Shown here one piece after another: positions 38,018 through 51,597 of a stretch of 64,000 nt of DNA. Each line of letters starts with the position of its first letter. Position 1 is the stretch's first letter. Under the pieces are notes generated by a model. The model did not search any database. It saw only the letters and a program-made list of their open reading frames with translations, and was not told the origin of the DNA. The DNA is from Streptomyces puniciscabiei (lineage in GTDB: Bacteria > Actinomycetota > Actinomycetes > Streptomycetales > Streptomycetaceae): contig NZ_VFNX01000001.1 in assembly GCF_006715785.1 (NCBI RefSeq), forward strand, positions 4,754,001-4,818,000. Direction: 5' to 3'. The position numbers and the translations under genes were made by a program.

Positions 38018-39795
38018 CGCCGGTCCCCTCCTTCGTCACTTCTGTCGAACGTGCCGCCGCCGGTGCGGGACACGGTGTGTCCGGGGGGCTTGGGAAGCTC
38101 TTTGTGCAGCTCGTGGTGCAGGTCGAGGGCGAGCGCGGCGGTCCAGCCGAAGCCGGTCGCGCCGCAGGCCTCGCCGGTGTACGGGTCGACGTACTCCGCG
38201 AAGTCCGTGGCCTCGGCGAGTTCCAGCACGGCCGCGCGCAGCGCGTCGGCCCGCTCCCGCTCGCCGTGCACCCGCAGACCCCGCTCCAGCAGCCAGCTCG
38301 TGTTGAACCAGGCCGGGCCGCGCCAGTACCGGTGCGGGTCGAAGGCCTCGCCGAGGAGGTCGTAACTGGGCACGAGCCGGGTGCGCTCGCCGAGCCCGAA
38401 GTGCGGCCCGCACAGCGTGCGCACGAGCGCGGCGGCCACCTCGCGCGGCAGCCCGGGCAGCATGAGCGGCACCAGACCGGACACACTCCGCTCCGGGATC
38501 AGCCCGGAGCCGCCCTGATCGGGGCGTGGGGTGGACTCGCCCTGTTGGCGGGCCGTTCCGGAGATGCCCTGCTCGTCGGCCGGGGCGGAGGTGCCTTGCA
38601 CGCGGGTGGGGCCGTCGGCAGCCGGCGAGTTGACGGGGCCGTGGGGACGGCGTGCGTCGACGCGGCCGGAGACACGTCGCTCGTGGACGTGGCCGGAGGC
38701 GCCCTGCCCTTGGGCCCGGTCGGTGGCGCCCTGCCCGTGAGCCGGGTCGGCGGCGGCCTGTTCATGGAGCGCGTCGGAGACACCGTGGGTCGCCACGGAT
38801 CCGCCCCGCTGGTGGATCTCTCCGCCGGCGCGCAGGTCCCGGCACAGGAACATCCCGTACGCCGGGTCCCACAGCCGGTCCACCAGCGCCTGGGTCAGCC
38901 GTTCGGCGCGTGCGTGCCGTGCGGTGCCGGCCGCACCCAGTTCCTCGGCGATCCGGGCCAGCGCGTGTTCGGAGGCGATGAGCAGGGCGTTGAACGCCGG
39001 GTCCTCGACCGCGAACTCACCCTCTTCGTCGGTGTACCCGGCGTCCCGGTAGTCGGCGGCCAGCCGCACATACCGTCCGTAGTCCAGATCCGTCGGCCGG
39101 TCCTCGGGTGCCCCGTGGTCGAGGTCGGCGCGGCGGAAGGAGCGGGCCGGGGCCGGGGTGGTACGGGCCAGCGGGGCGTCCCAGCACGGGCTGTTGTCCA
39201 TGCCCTGCTCCCAGGGGTGGACCACGGACACCAGCCCGCCGCCGCCCAGGTCCCGGCGGTGCAGCAGATAGCGGTGCCAGGCGGCCAGCCGCGGGTACAT
39301 CCGGGCCAGGAAGCCGCGGGCGCGCGACAGTCCGGGGTCGGCGCGGTGCACCAGCCAGGCCGCGAGCGCGTGTACCGGTGGCTGCACGATCCCCGAGGTC
39401 TGTACGGTGCGCGGGGCGCCCGCGGCGTGACCGGCGGTGGAGGAGCGCCAGAAGTCGGGGCTGGGGAAGTAGGCGTCGAGCGGTACGGAGGGGTTGAACA
39501 CGATGTGCGGGACACGCCCGTCGGCCCACTGGGCGGCCAGCAGTGTCTCCAGCTCGGTCTGGGCCCGCAGCGGCGAGACGTGCCTGAGGCCGATCGCGAT
39601 GAACGCCGAGTCCCAGGACCACTGGTGCGGATACAGGCTCCGGGAGGGGACCGTCGAGCCGCCCGTCCAGTTCGCGTCGAGCACCCGGGCCGCTCCGACC
39701 CGCAGGGACGCGCCCGAGGCCGGGGGACCGCAGGCGGTCCCGAAGGGCACGGGCGCCGCGGGACGGACGGTGAGCTTCGTGCTGCTGCGATCCAC
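38014..39795 (-). CDS. GH63/MGH1-like glycosidase with a low-complexity insertion
   Basis: 593-aa (alpha/alpha)6-barrel glycosidase resembling mannosylglycerate hydrolase/GH63-type enzymes. Barrel motifs are YPHQWSWDSAFIAIGLRHVS, SGIVQPPVHALAAWLVH, VVHPWEQGMDNSPCWD, RYWRGPAWFNTSWLLERGLR and ATDFAEYVDPYTGEACGATG. Between about residues 324 and 432 the sequence becomes repetitive, hydrophilic and Gly/Gln/His-rich, then resumes with PERSVSGLVPLMLPGL. From memory, homologues have only a few residues there, so this looks like an expansion in a surface loop. Coupled to the downstream debranching-type gene. The start is ATG 39795, preceded by an AT-rich operator region. Confidence 0.82.
   Translation of the reverse strand: MDRSSTKLTVRPAAPVPFGTACGPPASGASLRVGAARVLDANWTGGSTVPSRSLYPHQWSWDSAFIAIGLRHVSPLRAQTELETLLAAQWADGRVPHIVFNPSVPLDAYFPSPDFWRSSTAGHAAGAPRTVQTSGIVQPPVHALAAWLVHRADPGLSRARGFLARMYPRLAAWHRYLLHRRDLGGGGLVSVVHPWEQGMDNSPCWDAPLARTTPAPARSFRRADLDHGAPEDRPTDLDYGRYVRLAADYRDAGYTDEEGEFAVEDPAFNALLIASEHALARIAEELGAAGTARHARAERLTQALVDRLWDPAYGMFLCRDLRAGGEIHQRGGSVATHGVSDALHEQAAADPAHGQGATDRAQGQGASGHVHERRVSGRVDARRPHGPVNSPAADGPTRVQGTSAPADEQGISGTARQQGESTPRPDQGGSGLIPERSVSGLVPLMLPGLPREVAAALVRTLCGPHFGLGERTRLVPSYDLLGEAFDPHRYWRGPAWFNTSWLLERGLRVHGERERADALRAAVLELAEATDFAEYVDPYTGEACGATGFGWTAALALDLHHELHKELPKPPGHTVSRTGGGTFDRSDEGGDRR
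38497..38826 (-). repeat. Degenerate 30-bp-period coding minisatellite
   Basis: About 330 bases inside the GH63-like gene encode decad-spaced repeats such as EQGISGTARQ, QGESTPRPDQ, GGSGLIPERS, GQGASGHVHE and RRVSGRVDAR. The units are related to the native SVSGLV motif at the 3' border, suggesting growth by slippage or unequal exchange from that site. The frame is kept throughout. Confidence 0.7.
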
Positions 39796-39858
39796 TCGGG
39801 GCTCCCCGAAGACGAAGACACCCGGCCGGGCCGACCGGGTTTGGTGTTGACCCTCGTA

Positions 39859-39887
39859 GAGTTACGTCTATTTAACACGCAAAACTC
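39859..39887 (+). promoter_or_regulatory. Operator-like inverted repeat between glycosidases and ROK regulator
   Basis: GAGTT (39859-39863) and AACTC (39883-39887) flank an AT-rich 19-base core in the 131-base divergent intergenic region. ROK repressors such as Mlc/NagC bind AT-rich dyads. Weak but well placed between the two start codons. Confidence 0.45.
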
Positions 39888-39926
39888 AATATGTAATGCA
39901 GGCTTGGGAAACACAAGGGGGTGCGC

Positions 39927-41147
39927 ATGACCGAACGTCCGGGAAGAACCGGGAAGGCCGGCGGCCCGGCCGGTGCCGGAGAGCTGCTCGAACTGGTCCG
40001 CAGCGGGCGGGCGGTGACACGCGGTGCGCTCCAGCAGGCGACCGGACTGTCCCGCGCGACCGTCGGCCAGCGCCTGGACCGCCTCTTCCGGGCCGGCTGG
40101 CTGCGCGAGGGCGCCGGCGGCCCGGTCGACTCGCCGCTCGGCGGCCGCCCCTCCATCACCCTGGAGTTCGCCGACTCCCACGCCGTCGTCCTCGCCGCCG
40201 ACCTGGACACCCGGCACGCCCGCGCGGCCGTCCTGACGCTGACCGGCGAGATCCTCGCCGAGCACTCGGGGACGCTCGTGATCGGGGACGGGCCGGAGGC
40301 CGTACTGCCCGAACTGGGCCACTGGTTCGGGCAGTTGCTGGAGAAGGCCGGGCGGCCGGCGACGGAGGTCTGCGGCATCGGGCTCGCCGTGCCCGGCCCG
40401 GTGGACACCGGGACCGGCCGCGTGGTGCAGCCGCCGATGATGCCGGGCTGGGACGGCTACGACATAACGGGCCGTCTGTCCCGCGCCTTCACCGAGCACA
40501 CGGGCGCTCCGGCCGTCCCCGTGCTGGTCGACAACGACGCGAACCTCATGGCGTACGGCGAGCAGCGCGCCGGACACCCCGACTGCGCGGCCTTCGTGCT
40601 GGTCAAGGTGTCCACGGGCATCGGCGCCGGGGTGGTCGTGGACGGCTCGATCTACCGGGGGATCGACGGCGGCGCCGGCGACATCGGGCACATCCGGGTC
40701 GGCGCGGACGCGCTGTGCCGCTGCGGTTCGCACGGCTGTCTCGCCGCCGTGGCGAGCGGGGGCGCCGTGGCCCGGCGGCTGGCCGAGAGCGGGGTGCCGG
40801 CCGCCTCCGGCGCGGACGTACGGGATCTGCTGGCCGCCGGGCATCCGCAGGCGGCGGCGCTGGCCCGGGAGGCCGGGCGGCAGGTCGGTGACGTGCTGGC
40901 GACGGTGGTGACCCTGCTGAACCCCGGGGTGCTGATGATCGCGGGCGACCTGGCCGGGACCCCCTTCCTCACCGGCGTCCGGGAACTGCTCTACCAGCGG
41001 GCGCTGCCGCGTTCCACGGCACACCTGGAGGTCGTGACGTCCAGGCTGGGCGAGCGTGCCGCGCTCATCGGAGCGGGGGCGCTGGTCGTGGAACACCTCT
41101 ACGCGCCGGAGCGGGCCGAGGAGCGGCTGAGGGCACTGGGCGTCTGA
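39927..41147 (+). CDS. ROK-family transcriptional regulator
   Basis: 406-aa sugar-responsive regulator. The winged helix-turn-helix occupies residues about 20-75 (LVRSGRAVTRGALQQATGLS, RATVGQRLDRLFRAGWLREG). The ROK domain follows, with an ATP/sugar-site pattern (VLVDNDANLMAYGEQRAG, GIGAGVVVDGSIYRGIDGGA) and the zinc signature GHIRVGADALCRCGSHGCL. ATG 39927 is preferred because AAGGGGG sits five bases upstream; GTG 39921 is in frame. Divergent from the two glycosidase genes, so probably their sugar-inducible repressor. A kinase role is less likely given the intact DNA-binding domain. Confidence 0.9.
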   Translation: MTERPGRTGKAGGPAGAGELLELVRSGRAVTRGALQQATGLSRATVGQRLDRLFRAGWLREGAGGPVDSPLGGRPSITLEFADSHAVVLAADLDTRHARAAVLTLTGEILAEHSGTLVIGDGPEAVLPELGHWFGQLLEKAGRPATEVCGIGLAVPGPVDTGTGRVVQPPMMPGWDGYDITGRLSRAFTEHTGAPAVPVLVDNDANLMAYGEQRAGHPDCAAFVLVKVSTGIGAGVVVDGSIYRGIDGGAGDIGHIRVGADALCRCGSHGCLAAVASGGAVARRLAESGVPAASGADVRDLLAAGHPQAAALAREAGRQVGDVLATVVTLLNPGVLMIAGDLAGTPFLTGVRELLYQRALPRSTAHLEVVTSRLGERAALIGAGALVVEHLYAPERAEERLRALGV

Positions 41148-41601
41148 CACGGCCGGCGACCGGGGTCCGACGTGGCCGGTCCGGGCGTGTGACGTGGGTG
41201 TTTCCGGGTACCGGGAAGCGGTCCGCATGGTGAAATCCGGCGGGCTGTGGCAGCGTGATTCTCGCCACCCTTGATAAGGGTTGCGCTCAGATGAGCGGAT
41301 CATGGGCGACTGCACTTCTCCAAGGGGTGGCACTGGGTGCCACCCCTTGATCGTTCATCGATCGAAAACAGACGTGCGGGTTACTCGCTCATCTGAGCGG
41401 GAAACCCCGGGTTGGAGGGTGCTTGCGTTCAAGAAGTGAAGGCATCTGGTGGTGCTGGCTTGCCAAGCCTTGACTTTCGATCCGCTGGCGGACGACTGGT
41501 TACGGGCTCATGACGCGTAAGTGGACGTACCCATGCGCCTTCGATCTGGGTATGTTCCTGGCCGTCAGGGCAGCCACCGTGGCCTCAAGGAGTCGAGACC
41601 C
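41148..41601 (+). other. Hairpin-rich 454-bp intergenic region upstream of ppdK
   Basis: No convincing ORF. Four inverted repeats occur in a row: ACCCTT-GAT-AAGGGT (41267-41281), GCTCA-GA-TGAGC(GG) (41285-41298), a 12-bp perfect stem CAAGGGGTGGCA / TGCCACCCCTTG with loop CTGGG (41321-41349), and GCTCA-TC-TGAGC(GG) (41387-41400). The second and fourth are near-identical palindromes 102 bases apart. The large stem has no U-run. Near the gene, AAGGAG (41588-41593) is the ppdK Shine-Dalgarno. This may be a structured leader, a small RNA, or operators around a terminator. Confidence 0.5.
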
Positions 41602-44322
41602 GTGTCGGAAAACAAAGAACCCCACGTAGCGAAGTTCGTTTACGACTTCACCGAGGGCAACAAGGACCTCAAGGACCTCCTCGGTGGCAAGGGCGCCAAC
41701 CTCGCCGAGATGACCAACCTCGGTCTGCCGGTCCCTCCCGGCTTCACCATCACCACCGAGGCCTGCAAGGTCTACCTGGAGAGCGGTGAGGAGCCCGCGG
41801 CACTGCGTGACGAGGTGAGTGCGCACCTCGACGCCCTCGAGTCCCGCATGGGCAAGAAGCTCGGCCAGCCCGACAACCCCCTGCTGGTCTCGGTCCGCTC
41901 GGGCGCGAAGTTCTCCATGCCCGGCATGATGGACACGGTCCTGAACATCGGCCTCTCCGACAAGTCGGTGCAGGGCCTCGCCAAGCAGGCCGGCGACGAC
42001 CGCTTCGCCTGGGACTCCTACCGCCGCCTGATCCAGATGTTCGGCAAGACCGTCCTCGGCGTCGACGGCGAGCTCTTCGAGGAGGCCCTCGACAAGGCCA
42101 AGGAGGCCAAGAAGGTCACGGTCGACACCGACCTCGAGGCCGCCGACCTGAAGAAGCTCGTCACCACCTTCAAGAAGATCGTCAAGAAGGAGGCCGGCCG
42201 GGACTTCCCGCAGGACCCGCGCGAGCAGATGGACCTCGCCATCAAGGCGGTCTTCGACTCGTGGAACGGCGACCGCGCCAAGCTGTACCGCCGCCAGGAG
42301 CGCATCCCGCACGACCTCGGTACGGCCGTCAACGTCTGCTCGATGGTCTTCGGCAACCTGGGCCCCGACTCCGGTACGGGTGTCGCCTTCACCCGTGACC
42401 CCGCCTCCGGCCACCAGGGCGTCTACGGCGACTACCTGCAGAACGCCCAGGGCGAGGACGTGGTGGCGGGCATCCGCAACACCGTCCCGCTGGCGGAGCT
42501 GGAGTCGATCGACAAGAAGTCGTACGACCAGCTCATGCAGATCATGGAGACGCTGGAGAACCACTACAAGGACCTCTGCGACATCGAGTTCACGATCGAG
42601 CGCGGTCAGCTGTGGATGCTCCAGACCCGCGTCGGCAAGCGGACCGCCGGTGCCGCCTTCCGCATCGCGACCCAGCTGGTGGACCAGGGCCTGATCGACG
42701 AGACCGAGGCGCTCCAGCGCGTCACCGGCGCCCAGCTGGCCCAGCTGATGTTCCCGCGCTTCGACGAGCACGCGAAGGTCGAGAAGGTCGCGCGCGGTAT
42801 CGCCGCGTCCCCCGGCGCCGCGGTGGGCAGGGCGGTCTTCGACTCCTACACCGCCGTCAAGTGGTCCCGCTCGGGCGAGAAGGTCATCCTGGTCCGCCGT
42901 GAGACGAACCCGGACGACCTCGACGGCATGATCGCGGCGGAGGGCATCCTGACCAGCCGGGGCGGCAAGACGTCCCACGCGGCCGTGGTCGCCCGAGGCA
43001 TGGGCAAGACCTGTGTCTGCGGTGCGGAGGAGCTGGAGGTGGACACCAAGCGCCGCCGTATGACGGTCCCCGGCGGCCGCGTCGTCGAGGAAGGCGACCT
43101 GATCTCCATCGACGGTTCGACGGGCAAGGTCTACCTGGGCGAAGTCCCCGTGGTCCCCTCCCCGGTGGTGGAGTACTTCGAGGGCCGGATGCACCCGGGC
43201 GCGGACGACGCGGACGAGCTGGTCGAGGCGGTCCACCGCATGATGGCCTTCGCCGACCGCAAGCGCCGGCTGCGGGTCCGCGCCAACGCCGACAACGCCG
43301 AGGACGCGCTGCGCGCCCGCCGCTTCGGCGCCCAGGGCATCGGCCTGTGCCGCACGGAGCACATGTTCCTCGGTGAGCGCCGCGAGATGGTCGAGAAGCT
43401 GATCCTGGCGGACACGGAGAGTGAGCGCGAGGCGGCCCTGTCCGAGCTGCTCCCCCTCCAGAAGAAGGACTTCATCGAGCTCTTCGAGGCGATGGACGGC
43501 CTCCCCGTCACCATCCGCCTGCTGGACCCCCCGCTGCACGAGTTCCTCCCCGACATCACGGAACTCTCGGTCCGCGTGGCCCTGGCGGAGTCCCGCCAGG
43601 AGCCGCACGAGAACGAGCTCCGCCTGCTCCAGGCGGTGCACCGCCTGCACGAGCAGAACCCGATGCTGGGCCTGCGCGGCGTACGCCTCGGCCTGGTCAT
43701 CCCCGGCCTCTTCACCATGCAGGTCCGCGCCATCGCCGAGGCGGCCGCGGAACGCAAGACGGCGAAGGGCGACCCGCGCGCGGAGATCATGATCCCGCTC
43801 GTCGGCACGGTGCAGGAGCTGGAGATCGTCCGCGAGGAGGCCGACAAGGTCATCGCGGAGGTCGAGGCGGCGACGGGTACGGCGCTGAAGCTGGCGATCG
43901 GCACGATGATCGAGCTCCCGCGCGCGGCCCTCACGGCGGGTCAGATCGCCGAGGCGGCGGAGTTCTTCAGCTTCGGCACGAACGACCTGACGCAGACGGT
44001 GTGGGGCTTCAGCCGCGACGACGTCGAGGCCTCCTTCTTCACGGCATACCTGGAGAAGGGCATCTTCGGCGTGAGCCCCTTCGAGACGATCGACAAGGAC
44101 GGCGTCGGCTCCCTGGTGAAGTCGGCGGCGGAGGCGGGCCGGCGCACCCGCCCCGACCTCAAGCTCGGCGTCTGCGGCGAGCACGGCGGTGACCCCGAGT
44201 CCGTCCACTTCTTCCACGAGGTCGGCCTGGACTACGTCTCCTGCTCCCCCTTCCGCATCCCGGTGGCCCGCCTCGAGGCAGGCCGCGCGGCGACCCAGTC
44301 GGCGGGCAGCGACCACCGCTAG
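41602..44322 (+). CDS. ppdK: Pyruvate, phosphate dikinase
   Basis: 906-aa enzyme interconverting pyruvate, ATP and phosphate with PEP, AMP and PPi, central to the PEP-pyruvate node. The N-terminal ATP-grasp domain has DLLGGKGANLAEMTNLGLPV and VSVRSGAKFSMPGMMDTVLN. The swivelling phosphohistidine domain has GGKTSHAAVVARGMGKTCVC with His459 as phosphocarrier. The C-terminal PEP/pyruvate barrel carries IGLCRTEHMF, FSFGTNDLTQTVWGFSRDD and the catalytic Cys858 in LGVCGEHGGD. GTG 41602 has AAGGAG ten bases upstream; the upstream extension to 41521 lacks coding character. Length is standard. Followed by two strong hairpins. Confidence 0.97.
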   Translation: MSENKEPHVAKFVYDFTEGNKDLKDLLGGKGANLAEMTNLGLPVPPGFTITTEACKVYLESGEEPAALRDEVSAHLDALESRMGKKLGQPDNPLLVSVRSGAKFSMPGMMDTVLNIGLSDKSVQGLAKQAGDDRFAWDSYRRLIQMFGKTVLGVDGELFEEALDKAKEAKKVTVDTDLEAADLKKLVTTFKKIVKKEAGRDFPQDPREQMDLAIKAVFDSWNGDRAKLYRRQERIPHDLGTAVNVCSMVFGNLGPDSGTGVAFTRDPASGHQGVYGDYLQNAQGEDVVAGIRNTVPLAELESIDKKSYDQLMQIMETLENHYKDLCDIEFTIERGQLWMLQTRVGKRTAGAAFRIATQLVDQGLIDETEALQRVTGAQLAQLMFPRFDEHAKVEKVARGIAASPGAAVGRAVFDSYTAVKWSRSGEKVILVRRETNPDDLDGMIAAEGILTSRGGKTSHAAVVARGMGKTCVCGAEELEVDTKRRRMTVPGGRVVEEGDLISIDGSTGKVYLGEVPVVPSPVVEYFEGRMHPGADDADELVEAVHRMMAFADRKRRLRVRANADNAEDALRARRFGAQGIGLCRTEHMFLGERREMVEKLILADTESEREAALSELLPLQKKDFIELFEAMDGLPVTIRLLDPPLHEFLPDITELSVRVALAESRQEPHENELRLLQAVHRLHEQNPMLGLRGVRLGLVIPGLFTMQVRAIAEAAAERKTAKGDPRAEIMIPLVGTVQELEIVREEADKVIAEVEAATGTALKLAIGTMIELPRAALTAGQIAEAAEFFSFGTNDLTQTVWGFSRDDVEASFFTAYLEKGIFGVSPFETIDKDGVGSLVKSAAEAGRRTRPDLKLGVCGEHGGDPESVHFFHEVGLDYVSCSPFRIPVARLEAGRAATQSAGSDHR

Positions 44323-44346
44323 GCCCTGCCGGGCTGGTTGAACCCC

Positions 44347-44391
44347 GGAGCCGCTGCTGGTCCCCGACCCTCACCGATCGGCAGCGGCTCC
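44347..44391 (+). terminator. ppdK distal hairpin 1
   Basis: Perfect 10-bp stem GGAGCCGCTG (44347-44356) / CAGCGGCTCC (44382-44391) with a 25-base loop, 24 bases after the ppdK stop. Confidence 0.55.
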
Positions 44392-44406
44392 GGCGCACGA
44401 AAGAGG

Positions 44407-44440
44407 AGAGGCGACACCCTGTGCGGGGGGTGCCGCCTCT
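44407..44440 (+). terminator. ppdK terminator hairpin 2
   Basis: AGAGGCGACACCC (44407-44419) pairs with GGGTGCCGCCTCT (44428-44440) with one mismatch, followed by CTGTGTGTT. A good intrinsic terminator candidate closing the ppdK transcript. Confidence 0.75.
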
Positions 44441-44589
44441 CTGTGTGTTCAGTTTCGGCCGGTGTCCTGTTTTGGATCATCAGATGCGGTGATCGGATCG
44501 GGACGTAAGGATTCGCCATGTGATCGAGGCGCTACGTTCTGTAACTCCGGTGGCCGGTGGGGCTGTCGGAGTCATGGGAGAGGTGGCGT

Positions 44590-45012
44590 ATGAAGAAGAC
44601 AGTGGTGGGTCTGGTTGCTGCGGGGGTCTTTCTCGCGGGTGCCGGAACGGCGGTTGGGTCGTCGTGGCGGAATCTGCCAGACCAACGCACGGCAGGAGTT
44701 GCCTTCGAGGGAGGCCAGTACCAGTTCAATCCTACTGAGCGTAACCACGGAGCATTCGAATGGCGTGGCTACCTGAGGGACACCAACACCACGGATGGCC
44801 ACAACGGGTACGTGGAGGTCCAGGTCGATGGCCATGACTGGATGCGCTACTACGGCAAGCAGGGGAAAGCCGTCTTCATGCATCACTCGAACTGGGATGG
44901 GGCTCAGCAGTACATCGAGCATGCCCGACTCCACGTGTGCCGTGACCGGGGCGCTCTTCGTCCTGACAATTGCTCGACCGAGCGGCATTTCAGCTACGGA
45001 ATCAACGGCTGA
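44590..45012 (+). CDS. Small secreted protein of unknown function
   Basis: 140-aa exported protein. Signal peptide: KKTVVGLVAAGVFLAGAGT then AVG. The mature part of about 115 residues is rich in aromatic residues, Asn and His, with a beta-strand look (FEGGQYQFNP, HGAFEWRGYLRDTNTTDG, YVEVQVDGHDWMRYYGKQ). Two cysteines near the C terminus (HVCRDRGALRPDNCS) could form a disulfide. No family recognised. ATG 44590 follows GGGAGAGG. It is the first gene of a three-gene run with an ABC ATPase (12 bases on) and an FtsX-type permease. Codons ending in A or T are visibly commoner than in neighbouring genes, hinting at transfer. Confidence 0.75.
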   Translation: MKKTVVGLVAAGVFLAGAGTAVGSSWRNLPDQRTAGVAFEGGQYQFNPTERNHGAFEWRGYLRDTNTTDGHNGYVEVQVDGHDWMRYYGKQGKAVFMHHSNWDGAQQYIEHARLHVCRDRGALRPDNCSTERHFSYGING

Positions 45013-45023
45013 GCGAGGTCGTG

Positions 45024-45704
45024 GTGGCGGAAACACTGGTCGCCAGAGAAATCGATCTCTTCTATGGGACGTCGCAAGCGGTCAAGGGAGCGTCGATCGT
45101 GCTGCGCCGGGGCGAGATCGCGGCAATCACCGGGCCGAGCGGCTCGGGCAAGTCATCGCTGCTTTACTGCCTTGCCGGCGTACTGCCCGCCAGCCGAGGT
45201 GAAGTCCGCTTCGAGGGCTGTTCATTCGAGGAATTGGACGATGACGAGCTGAGCGCTCTTCGTCGGGATCGCTTCGGATTCGTCTTCCAGTACGGGGAGC
45301 TGCTACCCGAGTTGACCGTAGAGGAGAACGCTGCCCTGCCCCTGCGTCTGGCAGGGCAGCGAAAGAGGGCCGCGCTCTCAGCTGCCGGTGAGGTGTTGGG
45401 CAGGTTGGGTCTGGCGGAGCTGCGAAAGCGCCGACCGTCCCAAGTGTCGGGTGGACAAAGCCAGCGCGTGGCCGTGGCCCGTGCTCTGGTGCATCGACCG
45501 GCTGTGGTCTTCGCCGATGAGCCGACGGGCTCGCTCGACAGCGGCAACGCCTCGGCTGTGCTAGGCGAGTTCCTGACGCTGGCTCGCTCACAGGGCACGG
45601 CTGTCCTCCTCGTCACCCATGACCCGGATGTAGCGGCACGCGCCGACAGCCGCTACTCCATGGTGGATGGCGTCCTTACTGCAGTGAGGCCGGTCGAATC
45701 GTGA
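45024..45704 (+). CDS. ABC transporter ATPase, LolD/MacB type
   Basis: 226-aa ATPase. Walker A is GPSGSGKSS, the Q-loop is RDRFGFVFQYGELLPELTV, the signature VSGGQSQRVAVA, Walker B VFADEPTGSLD and the H-loop LLVTHDPDVA. The EEDELSALRRDRFGF-type sequence is typical of the LolD/MacB/FtsE branch, partnering FtsX-domain permeases in mechanotransmission or extracytoplasmic release. I chose GTG 45024, five bases after GAGG; GTG 45021 is equally possible. Its stop overlaps the permease GTG by four bases. Confidence 0.9.
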   Translation: MAETLVAREIDLFYGTSQAVKGASIVLRRGEIAAITGPSGSGKSSLLYCLAGVLPASRGEVRFEGCSFEELDDDELSALRRDRFGFVFQYGELLPELTVEENAALPLRLAGQRKRAALSAAGEVLGRLGLAELRKRRPSQVSGGQSQRVAVARALVHRPAVVFADEPTGSLDSGNASAVLGEFLTLARSQGTAVLLVTHDPDVAARADSRYSMVDGVLTAVRPVES

Positions 45705-47983
45705 AGGAGCTGCTTCTCGGACTACGTCTGCTGTTGGGCAGCGGACGCGGCAACCGTGTGCGATTCGCGCTGATGAGCGTGGGTGGCTCGATCGGTGTGT
45801 GCTGTTTGGCGATCGTGCTCACGATCCCCGGGATTCTGGCCGCGCAGGATGCGCGTGTCGCGGCAAGACAGCCGGTGGTGCCGAGAGACGAGTCGCACCG
45901 CCCGGTCTTCGCAGGGTTTCCCCTTCTACTGGAGCGGACTGAACCGTACGGCTCCAGGCCCCTCACTCGCATCTTCCTGGCCCGTGGTTCAAAAGACGTC
46001 GGGCCGCCACCAGGTTTGTCGTCGTTCCCGCGCGTAGGGCAGGTCTTCGTCTCCCCGCGGTTGCATCAGGCTCTACGTGCCGAGCCGAATCTCGCCCAAC
46101 GTCTTCCAGGGCGGGAATCGGGTCTGATTGGCCATCAGGGGCTCGCCCGCCCCGAGGAGCTGGTTGCCTACGTCGGCGTACGTCGTGGTGAGCTGTCGGA
46201 CGGCACTCCCGTCGTATGTTTCGGAGCGAAGAAGGCCTCGGAACGCACTGTGGATCCGGCGACACTCGGCATCTTGCGCTTCACCATGGTGGGGATCGTC
46301 CTGGTGCCATTGGCGGTGTTTCTCTCCGTCTGTGCCCGTCTATCCGCGGCCGAGCGGGCTCGCAGGCTGGCCGCGCTGCGTCTGCTGGGCATGAGCGGCA
46401 AGGGGGTGCAGCGGGTGAACGCCGCCGAGACGGTCGCCGCTGCCGGCCTCGGCTCCCTACTGGGGCTGGGTGCGTACTGGGGGTTCAACCAGCTCGTCTC
46501 GCGGATCGGACTGCCCGGATTCAGTTGGTACCCGAGCGATGGCGCGCCGACCAATTCCACCATTGTGGCCTGCCTGTTGGGCTGCCCAGCACTCGCATGG
46601 GCCGTGGGGCGGGTCAGTGCACGGAAGGCGGCTGCGAACCCACTCGCCGTTCGCAGGACGGCTCCAGAGAAGCTTCCATCTGCCTGGGGTTTCGTTCCGC
46701 TGCTGGCCGGGTCGGGCATCGCCGCGGGTTACTGCGTCGCCGGGGCAACTGGGCGCGTGCCTACCGACACTGGATCGTCCGTGCTTCTGATCCCCTCAAT
46801 GATCGTCCTCATCGGCGTCGGCCTTGTGACGATTCTGCCGCGGCTGTCCCGGGCGCTGGCCGGACGGATCGCCCGGTCCACCCACTCACTCGCCCTCGGT
46901 CTCGCCATGCGGCGCAATGAGGCCGAGCCGGGCGGGGCGCTTCGGGTGGCTGCTGGACTGGTCGTGTTGGTGTTTGCGGCATCCCTGGCCCAAGGGGTGC
47001 TTATCGAGCTGGACCAGGTCAGCAAGAACACCTCTCCGATCCAGGACTACGACATGCGGTACGCGCAGCTGACCGCGGCTCAGCGACAATCCCTTGAACG
47101 ACTGCCGGGCGTTCGCGCCCATATCGTCACCATGGAGTCGTCGCTCGTCGGTGGGTCGGAAATGGCATGGTCCCCCCAAGTCGTCCTGGCCACGTGCAGG
47201 CAGCTCCGGTCTGCGGTGCCGTGGGTTGGTGAGTGTGTTGACCGGCAACCCCTGCGGCTGACGAACACAAAGATGCCCCAGGACGGACCAGCAGACGTCG
47301 GAAAGAAGCTTGTTCTCCGGTTGGGCGGCGGCCACCGCGACGTGCCGATCACGGTGCCGAAGCGAACGGTCCCCTACCACGAGTTCGCGGATTCCTGGGT
47401 CCTCGGCAGCCAGGCGATCCTCGTTCCGCCGTCCGAACTGCCCGCGAGTGCACGTCCGGAGAGCGCCACGCTGACCCTGATCAGTGCCTCAGACCCCGAC
47501 ACCGTCCGCAGAGTCCTCGACGGCATCGGTCATGTCGCTCCGACGATCGAGGTGATCCCGCAGGGGCTGAACATCACGGCCCTCCAGCAGATCGCGGTCG
47601 TCAAGACTCTCCTAGCTCTCGGCATGGTCCTGGGCGCCGTCATCGGTGTTGCCGCCTATGTGGTCGCCGCCACCGACCGCGCAGTGGAACGGCGCCCTCA
47701 GGTCACCGCTCTGGCCCTGCTCGGTGCACGCCCCCGCACCCTGCGGGCCGTGCAGGTCACGCAGGTCGTGCTGCCGCTGTCGGTGGGGCTGCTGCTCGCC
47801 GTCGCCCTGGGCAAGATGGCCGAGTCCAGCTATCTGGTCACCGGCGGCGGCACGGTCTTCTGGGACGGTGCCGGTCTCCCCCTCCTGCTGGCTGGCACCC
47901 TAGGCGTTGTAGCTGTCGCCGCGCTCGGCTCCCTCCCGCTCGTCGGGCGGCGGATCGACCCCGAGTTGATTCGGCGGGACTGA
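45701..47983 (+). CDS. FtsX-type ABC permease
   Basis: 760-aa membrane protein with two FtsX domains and about ten TM helices. An N-terminal helix (ALMSVGGSIGVCCLAIVLTI) precedes a large extracytoplasmic segment (residues 60-185). A helical bundle follows (TMVGIVLVPLAVFLSVCARL, TVAAAGLGSLLGLGAYWGF, and others), then a second extracytoplasmic segment of about 200 residues, and a closing pair of helices after AYVVAATDRAVERRPQVTAL. It works with the preceding ATPase. In this class the permease often releases, senses or resists an extracellular product (lipoprotein, bacteriocin, antimicrobial peptide). The adjacent secreted protein may be the partner. Confidence 0.88.
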   Translation: MKELLLGLRLLLGSGRGNRVRFALMSVGGSIGVCCLAIVLTIPGILAAQDARVAARQPVVPRDESHRPVFAGFPLLLERTEPYGSRPLTRIFLARGSKDVGPPPGLSSFPRVGQVFVSPRLHQALRAEPNLAQRLPGRESGLIGHQGLARPEELVAYVGVRRGELSDGTPVVCFGAKKASERTVDPATLGILRFTMVGIVLVPLAVFLSVCARLSAAERARRLAALRLLGMSGKGVQRVNAAETVAAAGLGSLLGLGAYWGFNQLVSRIGLPGFSWYPSDGAPTNSTIVACLLGCPALAWAVGRVSARKAAANPLAVRRTAPEKLPSAWGFVPLLAGSGIAAGYCVAGATGRVPTDTGSSVLLIPSMIVLIGVGLVTILPRLSRALAGRIARSTHSLALGLAMRRNEAEPGGALRVAAGLVVLVFAASLAQGVLIELDQVSKNTSPIQDYDMRYAQLTAAQRQSLERLPGVRAHIVTMESSLVGGSEMAWSPQVVLATCRQLRSAVPWVGECVDRQPLRLTNTKMPQDGPADVGKKLVLRLGGGHRDVPITVPKRTVPYHEFADSWVLGSQAILVPPSELPASARPESATLTLISASDPDTVRRVLDGIGHVAPTIEVIPQGLNITALQQIAVVKTLLALGMVLGAVIGVAAYVVAATDRAVERRPQVTALALLGARPRTLRAVQVTQVVLPLSVGLLLAVALGKMAESSYLVTGGGTVFWDGAGLPLLLAGTLGVVAVAALGSLPLVGRRIDPELIRRD

Positions 47984-47998
47984 GGGGCGCGACAGGTG

Positions 47999-48030
47999 AG
48001 GGGGCGGTACCCGGTATGGGTGCCGTCCCT
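47999..48030. terminator. Convergent terminator between FtsX permease and tetR
   Basis: AGGGGGCGGTACCC and GGGTGCCGTCCCT can pair with one bulge around loop GGTAT, in the 49-base gap between converging genes. Confidence 0.5.
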
Positions 48031-48032
48031 CT

Positions 48033-48767
48033 TCAGTTGTGGGGGGTGAGCAGGCCTTTCACCAGGGCCGCCAGGCCGTGGGCGTAGGTGTCCTGTGCGG
48101 TCAGGGTGGCCCAGCGGTCCGCCAGTTGGGCCAGGCGGGGGAGTTCGGCCGGGTCGAGGTCGGCGAAGACGCGGTCGCGGTAGGTCGGGCGGGCGTCGGT
48201 GGCGCGCCGGCGGGCCGCTGTCGCGCGGACCAGGATCTCGCCGGCGGTGTAGTACCAGATGGTGCGGTAACCGTGTACGGCGTCGTCCGGGGACAGTCCG
48301 CACTCCGTCAGACCGTCCACGATCTGCTCGACGTGCCACAGGGCCGACGTGGACATGAGGTCGTCCGCCGTGAGGACGTCCACCGTCCAGGGACAGGCCG
48401 CCAGTACCTCGTGGATCGCGGTGGCGGCGGCGATGACGCGTTCGAGTGGGTCGGTGGGAGGGGCCGGCGGGCGGCGCAGGGTGCGGGCGGCGTAGTCGTC
48501 CAGGAGCAGGACGAGGAGTTCCTCCTTGTCGCGGACGTGGTGGTACAGCGCCATGGGCGTGCTGCCGATCTCGGCGGCCAGGCGGCGCATCGTCAGCCGC
48601 TTCACCCCCTCCTCCGTCACGATCCGGAGCGCCGTCCGGATGATCTCCGCGCGGGAGATACGGGCTGGTCGGCCGGGGGTGTTGCCGGTCGTGGTGCCGG
48701 TGCCCTTGCCGGTCGTCGTGCCGGTGGGCTTTCGGGCGGTGGGCGGTTGCGGCATGGGGTCCATCAT
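48033..48767 (-). CDS. TetR-family regulator with TetR_C domain
   Basis: 244-aa regulator. A disordered Thr/Gly-rich N-terminal tail (PTGTTTGKGTGTTTGNTPGR) precedes the HTH (SRAEIIRTALRIVTEEGVKR, LTMRRLAAEIGSTPMALYHH, VRDKEELLVLLLDDYA). The C-terminal domain resembles the tetracycline-repressor TetR_C (HVEQIVDGLTECGLSPDDAV, YRTIWYYTAGEILVRATAAR). Start uncertain among ATGs at 48767, 48764 and 48755. Divergent from a drug exporter, with a TetR-type palindrome over the exporter start. Confidence 0.9.
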   Translation of the reverse strand: MMDPMPQPPTARKPTGTTTGKGTGTTTGNTPGRPARISRAEIIRTALRIVTEEGVKRLTMRRLAAEIGSTPMALYHHVRDKEELLVLLLDDYAARTLRRPPAPPTDPLERVIAAATAIHEVLAACPWTVDVLTADDLMSTSALWHVEQIVDGLTECGLSPDDAVHGYRTIWYYTAGEILVRATAARRRATDARPTYRDRVFADLDPAELPRLAQLADRWATLTAQDTYAHGLAALVKGLLTPHN

Positions 48768-51447: not shown

Positions 51448-51597
51448 CAGTGGATGAAGGGCACTTTGTTCGATGCACCCCGGGCCGGAAAAGTTGTGCC
51501 CATCCCTCGTCCATCGCCTTGCGGGTCCCCTGGCACACGGTCGCAACACGCCTTTCGTAATCGACGCGCATGGTTGATCGTTGGGCCGTGCATCAAT

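Follow-up and report, generated by a model that had tools for sequence, protein, structure and literature searches.

Three adjacent genes of Streptomyces puniciscabiei raise the question of whether a small exported protein of no recognizable family and the ATP-binding cassette (ABC) ATPase-permease pair encoded beside it form a single system and, if so, what that system does. The genes lie at positions 44590 to 47983 of the window, by which we mean the whole 64,000-nucleotide stretch analyzed (contig NZ_VFNX01000001.1, positions 4,754,001 to 4,818,000 of the forward strand, in a genome of 9.15 Mb). All three are on the + strand, in the order secreted protein (SP), ATPase, permease. We conclude that they constitute a real three-gene system in which the type of machine is known and the secreted family reaches none of the cut-offs of the libraries searched. 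As for function, we see about an even chance that the genes work together as a single unit, namely a Type VII (mechanotransmission) ABC machine of YbbAP architecture for which SP serves as the dedicated extracytoplasmic partner. Within this reading, the existence and conservation of the gene unit, the predicted structures of the permease and SP, and the purifying selection are backed by data; docking, stoichiometry, transport direction, and the kind of substrate are inferred.

The genes are closely packed. The most likely ATPase start is the GTG at 45024, 11 bases past the SP stop (the initial annotation had counted 12), and the permease start, GTG 45701, overlaps the ATPase end by 4 bases. 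The ATPase is of the LolD/FtsE/MacB type but scored below the cut-off of all 25 NCBIfam families among the matches listed, the best being LolD (191.4 bits; cut-off, 307.75). Walker A, signature, and H-loop motifs were present in 83 of 83 ATPases from intact, nonidentical triads (those kept after filtering 125 loci), and a strict Walker B pattern was present in 52 of them. The FtsX family PF02687 matched the permease in two stretches (32 bits; cut-off, 25.5), and none of the NCBIfam families did. An AlphaFold2 model of the permease predicts ten long helices, which we read as transmembrane (TM) helices, and two extracellular domains, the second of which contains C499 and C512, both invariant in 40 sequences. 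Over its full length the model was closest to Escherichia coli YbbAP and BceAB, with YbbAP as the top Foldseek match; profile comparison with solved structures gave LolE as the best, weak match (E, 0.0094 to 0.015). With its FtsX-type permease and LolD/MacB-type ATPase, the module belongs to the Type VII (MacB/LolCDE/FtsX) class of ABC machines. The initial annotation had described such an ATPase, a ten-helix double FtsX permease, and an exported 140-aa protein of no known family with two C-terminal cysteines, and these descriptions held, the cysteines being C117 and C128.

SP is predicted to consist of a signal peptide and a mature all-beta domain of ~117 aa, with residues 1 to 21 modeled at a predicted local distance difference test score below 50. 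In an alignment of 33 relatives, A-x-A precedes the likely cleavage site in most members and A-x-G does so in the window copy. The signal is of the Sec type, and no lipobox was seen by eye. The window SP reached no Pfam cut-off (its single row was a plant family at an E of 0.08) and matched no family in NCBIfam or PADLOC; among 25 SP members searched against Pfam, no family did better than an E of 0.069. The loop from C117 to C128 is strongly conserved in 83 sequences, with a mean majority fraction of 0.91 versus 0.62 across the mature domain. Of these sequences, 36 came from a pattern search on the two-Cys loop itself; 33 relatives collected without the loop pattern likewise show no variation at C117, D126, or C128. 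SP has no fully conserved serine and, apart from S129, no near-invariant one; S129 is present in at least 90% of members in two smaller alignments and in a fraction below 0.9 of the 83-member alignment, with A, L, or T in some members. We give little credence to the idea that SP is itself the cargo that the ABC pair exports or releases. Such a role would fit a shared gene unit and the ability of LolCDE relatives to move lipoproteins out of the membrane (PMC12646458), but it sits poorly with the Sec-type signal, with the lack of a visible lipobox, and with solo SP genes that are intact where no ABC genes accompany them.

SP was found in 35 of 295 genomes of the genus, the window genome counted, and a profile search of the order found it in 45 of 293 genomes, all from 1 of 9 genera. 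A scan of a genome collection of 84,980 species used only the loop pattern D[RK]G[SAT][LF]xPD[NY]C, which restricted what it could find, and gave 71 loci, of which 67 were named Streptomyces, 2 Cellulomonas, 1 Actinocorallia, and 1 Microtetraspora glauca. The last (L223, JOFO01000030.1, labeled strain NRRL B-3735) is probably a mislabeled Streptomyces. In three overlapping sets of loci, the three genes co-occurred as the initial annotation had proposed to check: the ATPase and permease genes were directly downstream of SP in 33 of 36 genus matches outside the window genome, beside it in each of 19 loci picked out of 46 order-profile matches (L109 is truncated in both genes), and present in 70 of the 71 loci from the scan, those of Cellulomonas and Actinocorallia included (L206 has a permease remnant only, and L232 is partial). 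The exceptions among the 36 were L074, a weak match with no ABC genes, and L051 and L055, in which an intact SP gene lies beside ppdK (inverted relative to it in L055) and the ATPase and permease are missing. Damage was seen among the 33 linked loci in L042 (SP interrupted by a stop, permease broken) and L057 (a stop in SP); in L046, L070, and L073, the permease appears in two pieces. From the permease side (121 genomes), there were, among the matches listed, 17 near-full-length homologues of at least 49% identity and a 73-residue fragment at 64% (G117); SP accompanied 14 of the 17, and was not detected with 2 (G061 and G095); the remaining 1 (G001) lies at a contig end. Two same-family ATPase-permease pairs without SP (L160 and L161) have a high G+C content at third codon positions (GC3), 0.92 to 0.96.

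This near-constant adjacency of SP and the ABC genes across genera suggests more than a shared stress. We therefore consider it distinctly unlikely that the parts act separately on one stress, the ABC pair as a BceAB-like protection pump and SP as a sponge that takes up the same compound outside the cell, although solo SP and solo ABC loci do exist and related ABC pairs without SP, whose link to the loci described here is presumptive, are responsive to envelope antibiotics (PMC3123327). No constant fourth gene was found: beyond the triad, no family occurred in more than 24 of the 83 loci within ~7 kb, where neighbors were unannotated and some loci were short. The commonest further neighbor was ppdK (24 loci), and rarer ones may be undercounted, since even the three module genes were recovered by the gene picker in no more than 79, 78, and 65 of the 83 loci. 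FtsEX controls EnvC (PMC12646458), and in a similar manner the ABC machine here might pass force to SP, which would then regulate a wall hydrolase or other envelope process with no transport. We find this quite improbable, because the full-length structural matches were to YbbAP and BceAB, not to FtsX, and because no constant fourth gene was found nearby.

Pairwise distances correlated at 0.77 between SP and permease, 0.75 between SP and ATPase, and 0.93 between ATPase and permease, values that shared descent explains as well as interaction does. The median ratio of nonsynonymous to synonymous substitution rates (dN/dS) over 25 pairs was 0.225 for SP, 0.185 for the permease, and 0.073 for the ATPase, and the dN of SP exceeded that of the permease in 15 of the 25. 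Judged by these rates, SP evolves under purifying selection and bears little resemblance to a toxin in an arms race. L051 apparently lost its ABC genes recently, since its flanks are 93 to 96% identical to those of L045, which has them, and its SP frame is still open. As roles for the small protein, the initial annotation had offered a released effector, an immunity factor, or a sensor. Purifying selection and intact SP genes without ABC genes both argue against a self-toxic effector dependent on the ABC pair for immunity. The main rival explanation is a bacteriocin-like unit in which SP would be a Sec-secreted antibacterial and the ABC pair would protect the producer, as for lactococcin 972. 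Lactococcin-972 systems of the genus have a similar three-part layout (two of five PF09683 loci read), the Lcn972 ABC genes have been proposed to confer immunity (PMC4055356), and the patchy distribution and the insertion or deletion of the module as a whole would suit this explanation, with L160 and L161 as possible orphan immunity pairs. We nevertheless regard it as unlikely, given that SP and the permease match none of the corresponding families, that the gene order differs, that SP is not diversifying, and that SP persists intact in L051 and L055.

Lactococcin 972 systems resemble the module in combining a Sec-secreted small protein, an ATPase, and a large permease; they differ in the secreted family, in having no detectable permease similarity to the module, and in their order, secreted protein-permease-ATPase. 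Their secreted protein kills through lipid II binding. Identity with them was rejected: SP had no match to PF09683 or TIGR01653, which matched controls (TIGR01653, 40.1 bits in L176; PF09683, 35.5 bits for a gene of the same genome as the window). Assignment of the permease to TIGR01654 was likewise rejected for want of a match, the L178 control scoring 50.9 bits, itself under the cut-off of 189.35; hhalign of the window permease against the Lcn972 permease gave a probability of 0.2% with a profile of only two Lcn972 permeases. Against TIGR03608, the lactococcin-972 ATPase family, the window ATPase scored 161.1 bits (cut-off, 254.85), and the L178 control was also below, at 217.9. PF09683 occurred in 5 of 61 genus genomes, and of the five loci read, L176 and L178 have a permease and an ATPase behind it. 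These two (L176:3359-6648 and L178:3682-7034) are Streptomyces lactococcin-972-type systems with the order bacteriocin-permease-ATPase. The PF09683 gene of the window's own genome (L105:5752-6216; G000:C1 ~3498.2-3498.6 kb) is followed by a small membrane-protein open reading frame (ORF), and no relative of the window ATPase or permease was found in the 14 kb read.

We return to SP as a dedicated partner. Type VII machines are paired with partner proteins, so a role as secreted partner to the ABC machine is the best reading of SP, and the likeness of the permease to YbbAP points to the same role. Since SP is not TesA-like, a carrier, clamp, or regulator is expected rather than an enzyme. In such a machine, two ATPases would serve one pseudo-symmetric ten-helix permease, SP would exit the cell by the Sec route, and its beta-sandwich might dock on both extracellular domains of the permease. 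ATP-driven closure of these domains could then lift a hydrophobic or membrane-bound molecule from the outer leaflet as far as SP or beyond it; candidate cargoes are lipids, lipid-linked precursors of the wall, and envelope-active antibiotics. Solo SP genes and solo ABC pairs, both of which occur, weigh against this partnership; covariation yielded no contact signal that could be used. A conserved secreted partner family extending from Streptomyces to Cellulomonas would add a new functional branch in monoderm bacteria and would open to direct testing what FtsX-type ABC pairs do in actinobacteria that produce antibiotics.

Table 1. Features of the three-gene module and its upstream region (window coordinates)
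Feature	Position	Strand	Remarks
Hairpins just 3' of ppdK	44406..44447		Terminator-like; the two module-less relatives compared are similar in DNA up to this point
ATCATCAGATGCGGTGAT	44476..44493		Degenerate copy of inverted repeat TCACC-N6-11-GGTG, departing from the strict pattern; possible operator
TACGTTCTGT	44533..44542	+	Member of the TACNTTCYGT element, conserved upstream of SP; possible -10 region
SP gene	44590..45012	+	ATG 44590, stop 45010-45012; 140 aa, secreted, unnamed family
SP signal peptide (Sec), residues 1-23	44590..44658	+	Alignment of 33 relatives; putative cleavage site
SP two-Cys loop, C117-C128	44938..44973	+	Consensus CRDRGSLRPDNC from alignment; probable disulfide
LolD/MacB-type ABC ATPase	45024..45704	+	Walker A, signature, H-loop
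Double-FtsX permease	45701..47983	+	760 aa; ten model helices, taken to be TM
First extracellular domain of permease, residues 57-185	45869..46255	+	TM1-TM2; AlphaFold2 model, boundaries from its secondary structure
Second extracellular domain of permease, residues 442-624	47024..47572	+	TM7-TM8; AlphaFold2 model

The module is a discrete unit that occurs at more than one site and is absent from most genomes searched. An empty site is found in L280 (genome G016), which aligns with window positions 38823 to 44440 and again from 48059, with ~0.4 kb replacing the module; in a second module-less relative, L281 (G020), similarity resumes only at 51546. In G475 (L113) and S. filipinensis (L180), ppdK and the module are followed by the same TetR and MFS genes, with ~2.4 kb extra between ppdK and the module in L180. 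CoH27 (L179), which carries the nearest SP relative of the loop-pattern scan (70%), has no ppdK within 6 kb. The slot after ppdK (window 44440 to 48059) varies in the genus, different genes following in the 15 ppdK loci, of 30, that were read in the right direction; no more than 2 of these 30 loci had a match to an SP profile, one being the locus in the window. Upstream of SP, TACNTTCYGT was present 40 to 69 nt before the start in 33 of 83 regions of 250 nt (0.05 expected from mononucleotide shuffles), and TCACC-N6-11-GGTG was present in 31 of 83 regions of 200 nt (0.67 expected from block shuffles) at a median of 111 nt before SP. These conserved signals suggest a shared regulator, though no regulator gene belongs to the unit.

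The initial annotation had also noted codon use less GC-rich than that of the flanking genes and had suggested acquisition. GC3 was 0.709 for SP, 0.727 for the ATPase, and 0.775 for the permease, versus a mean of 0.929 (standard deviation, 0.042; minimum, 0.79) for 46 other window ORFs, and the codon-adaptation scores were 0.386, 0.385, and 0.421, respectively, versus 0.718 (standard deviation, 0.087; minimum, 0.517); these ORFs are an imperfect reference set, as the ORF picker favors high GC3 and some may be in wrong frames. The adjoining ppdK has a GC3 of 0.95. Both of the points on which the annotation had staked its proposal, a composition unlike that of the neighbors and co-occurrence of the three genes elsewhere, were thus confirmed. 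Across 56 loci each, mean GC3 was 0.84 for SP, 0.81 for the ATPase, and 0.82 for the permease, compared with 0.95 for ppdK (19 loci), and some module loci reach 0.90 or more. The module is therefore compositionally odd in most hosts, beyond this genome alone, so that low GC3 by itself is no proof of recent arrival here; atypical codon use, a patchy distribution, and an empty site in one relative were borne out.

Other ABC pairs of the genus offer a further comparison. Among the matches listed, a PadR-ATPase-permease family has permeases 27 to 34% identical to that of the window, and in none of the 13 PadR-type loci read did the gene picker place a secreted protein gene next to the ABC pair. 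The copy in the window's own genome, followed by LysR, AhpC, and CMD genes, presumably corresponds to SCO5036-5031; the PadR-type loci presumably correspond to SCO5034-5036, given the oxyR-ahpC neighborhood (seen in L172). The S. coelicolor loci SCO5034-5036, SCO3089-3090, and SCO3110-3111 resemble the module in having ATPase and permease pairs; according to PMC3123327, vancomycin induces SCO5034-5036, and bacitracin resistance depends in part on the homologues SCO3089-3090 and SCO3110-3111. This antibiotic response of related pairs points tentatively to an envelope-stress substrate for the module.

Partner proteins such as EnvC, LolA, TesA, and BceS help to classify Type VII machines and to predict their function (PMC12646458). 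According to the same source, LolCDE extracts lipoproteins for LolA and BceAB works with BceS. BceB is described there as having one large extracellular domain (TM7-TM8), whereas the window permease model has two, and the bacitracin-resistance module BceAB(S) has a histidine-kinase partner, whereas no constant fourth gene was found here among unannotated neighbors with an incomplete gene picker. YbbAP docks the secreted hydrolase TesA, one per permease (PDB 9GE6/9GE7), and is proposed to extract hydrophobic molecules for it (PMC12646458). Unlike TesA, a GDSL serine hydrolase, SP is all-beta, without a fully conserved serine or a close Pfam family; unlike YbbA, the window ATPase scores 168.5 bits against an equivalog cut-off of 336; and unlike the genes for YbbAP-TesA, those for SP, ATPase, and permease are all codirectional. 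Like YbbAP-TesA of E. coli, the module pairs a LolD-type ATPase with a small secreted partner encoded adjacently, and like YbbAP it has, in a predicted model, a single permease of ten helices whose two extracellular domains follow TM1 and TM7. Tentatively, and with rather less confidence than in the partnership itself, we propose that SP may represent a new class of Type VII partner, a nonenzymatic Ig-like carrier or clamp that would dock by its CRDRGSLRPDNC loop and so enable a YbbAP-type machine of Gram-positive bacteria to extract lipid-linked or envelope-active molecules at the membrane's outer face.
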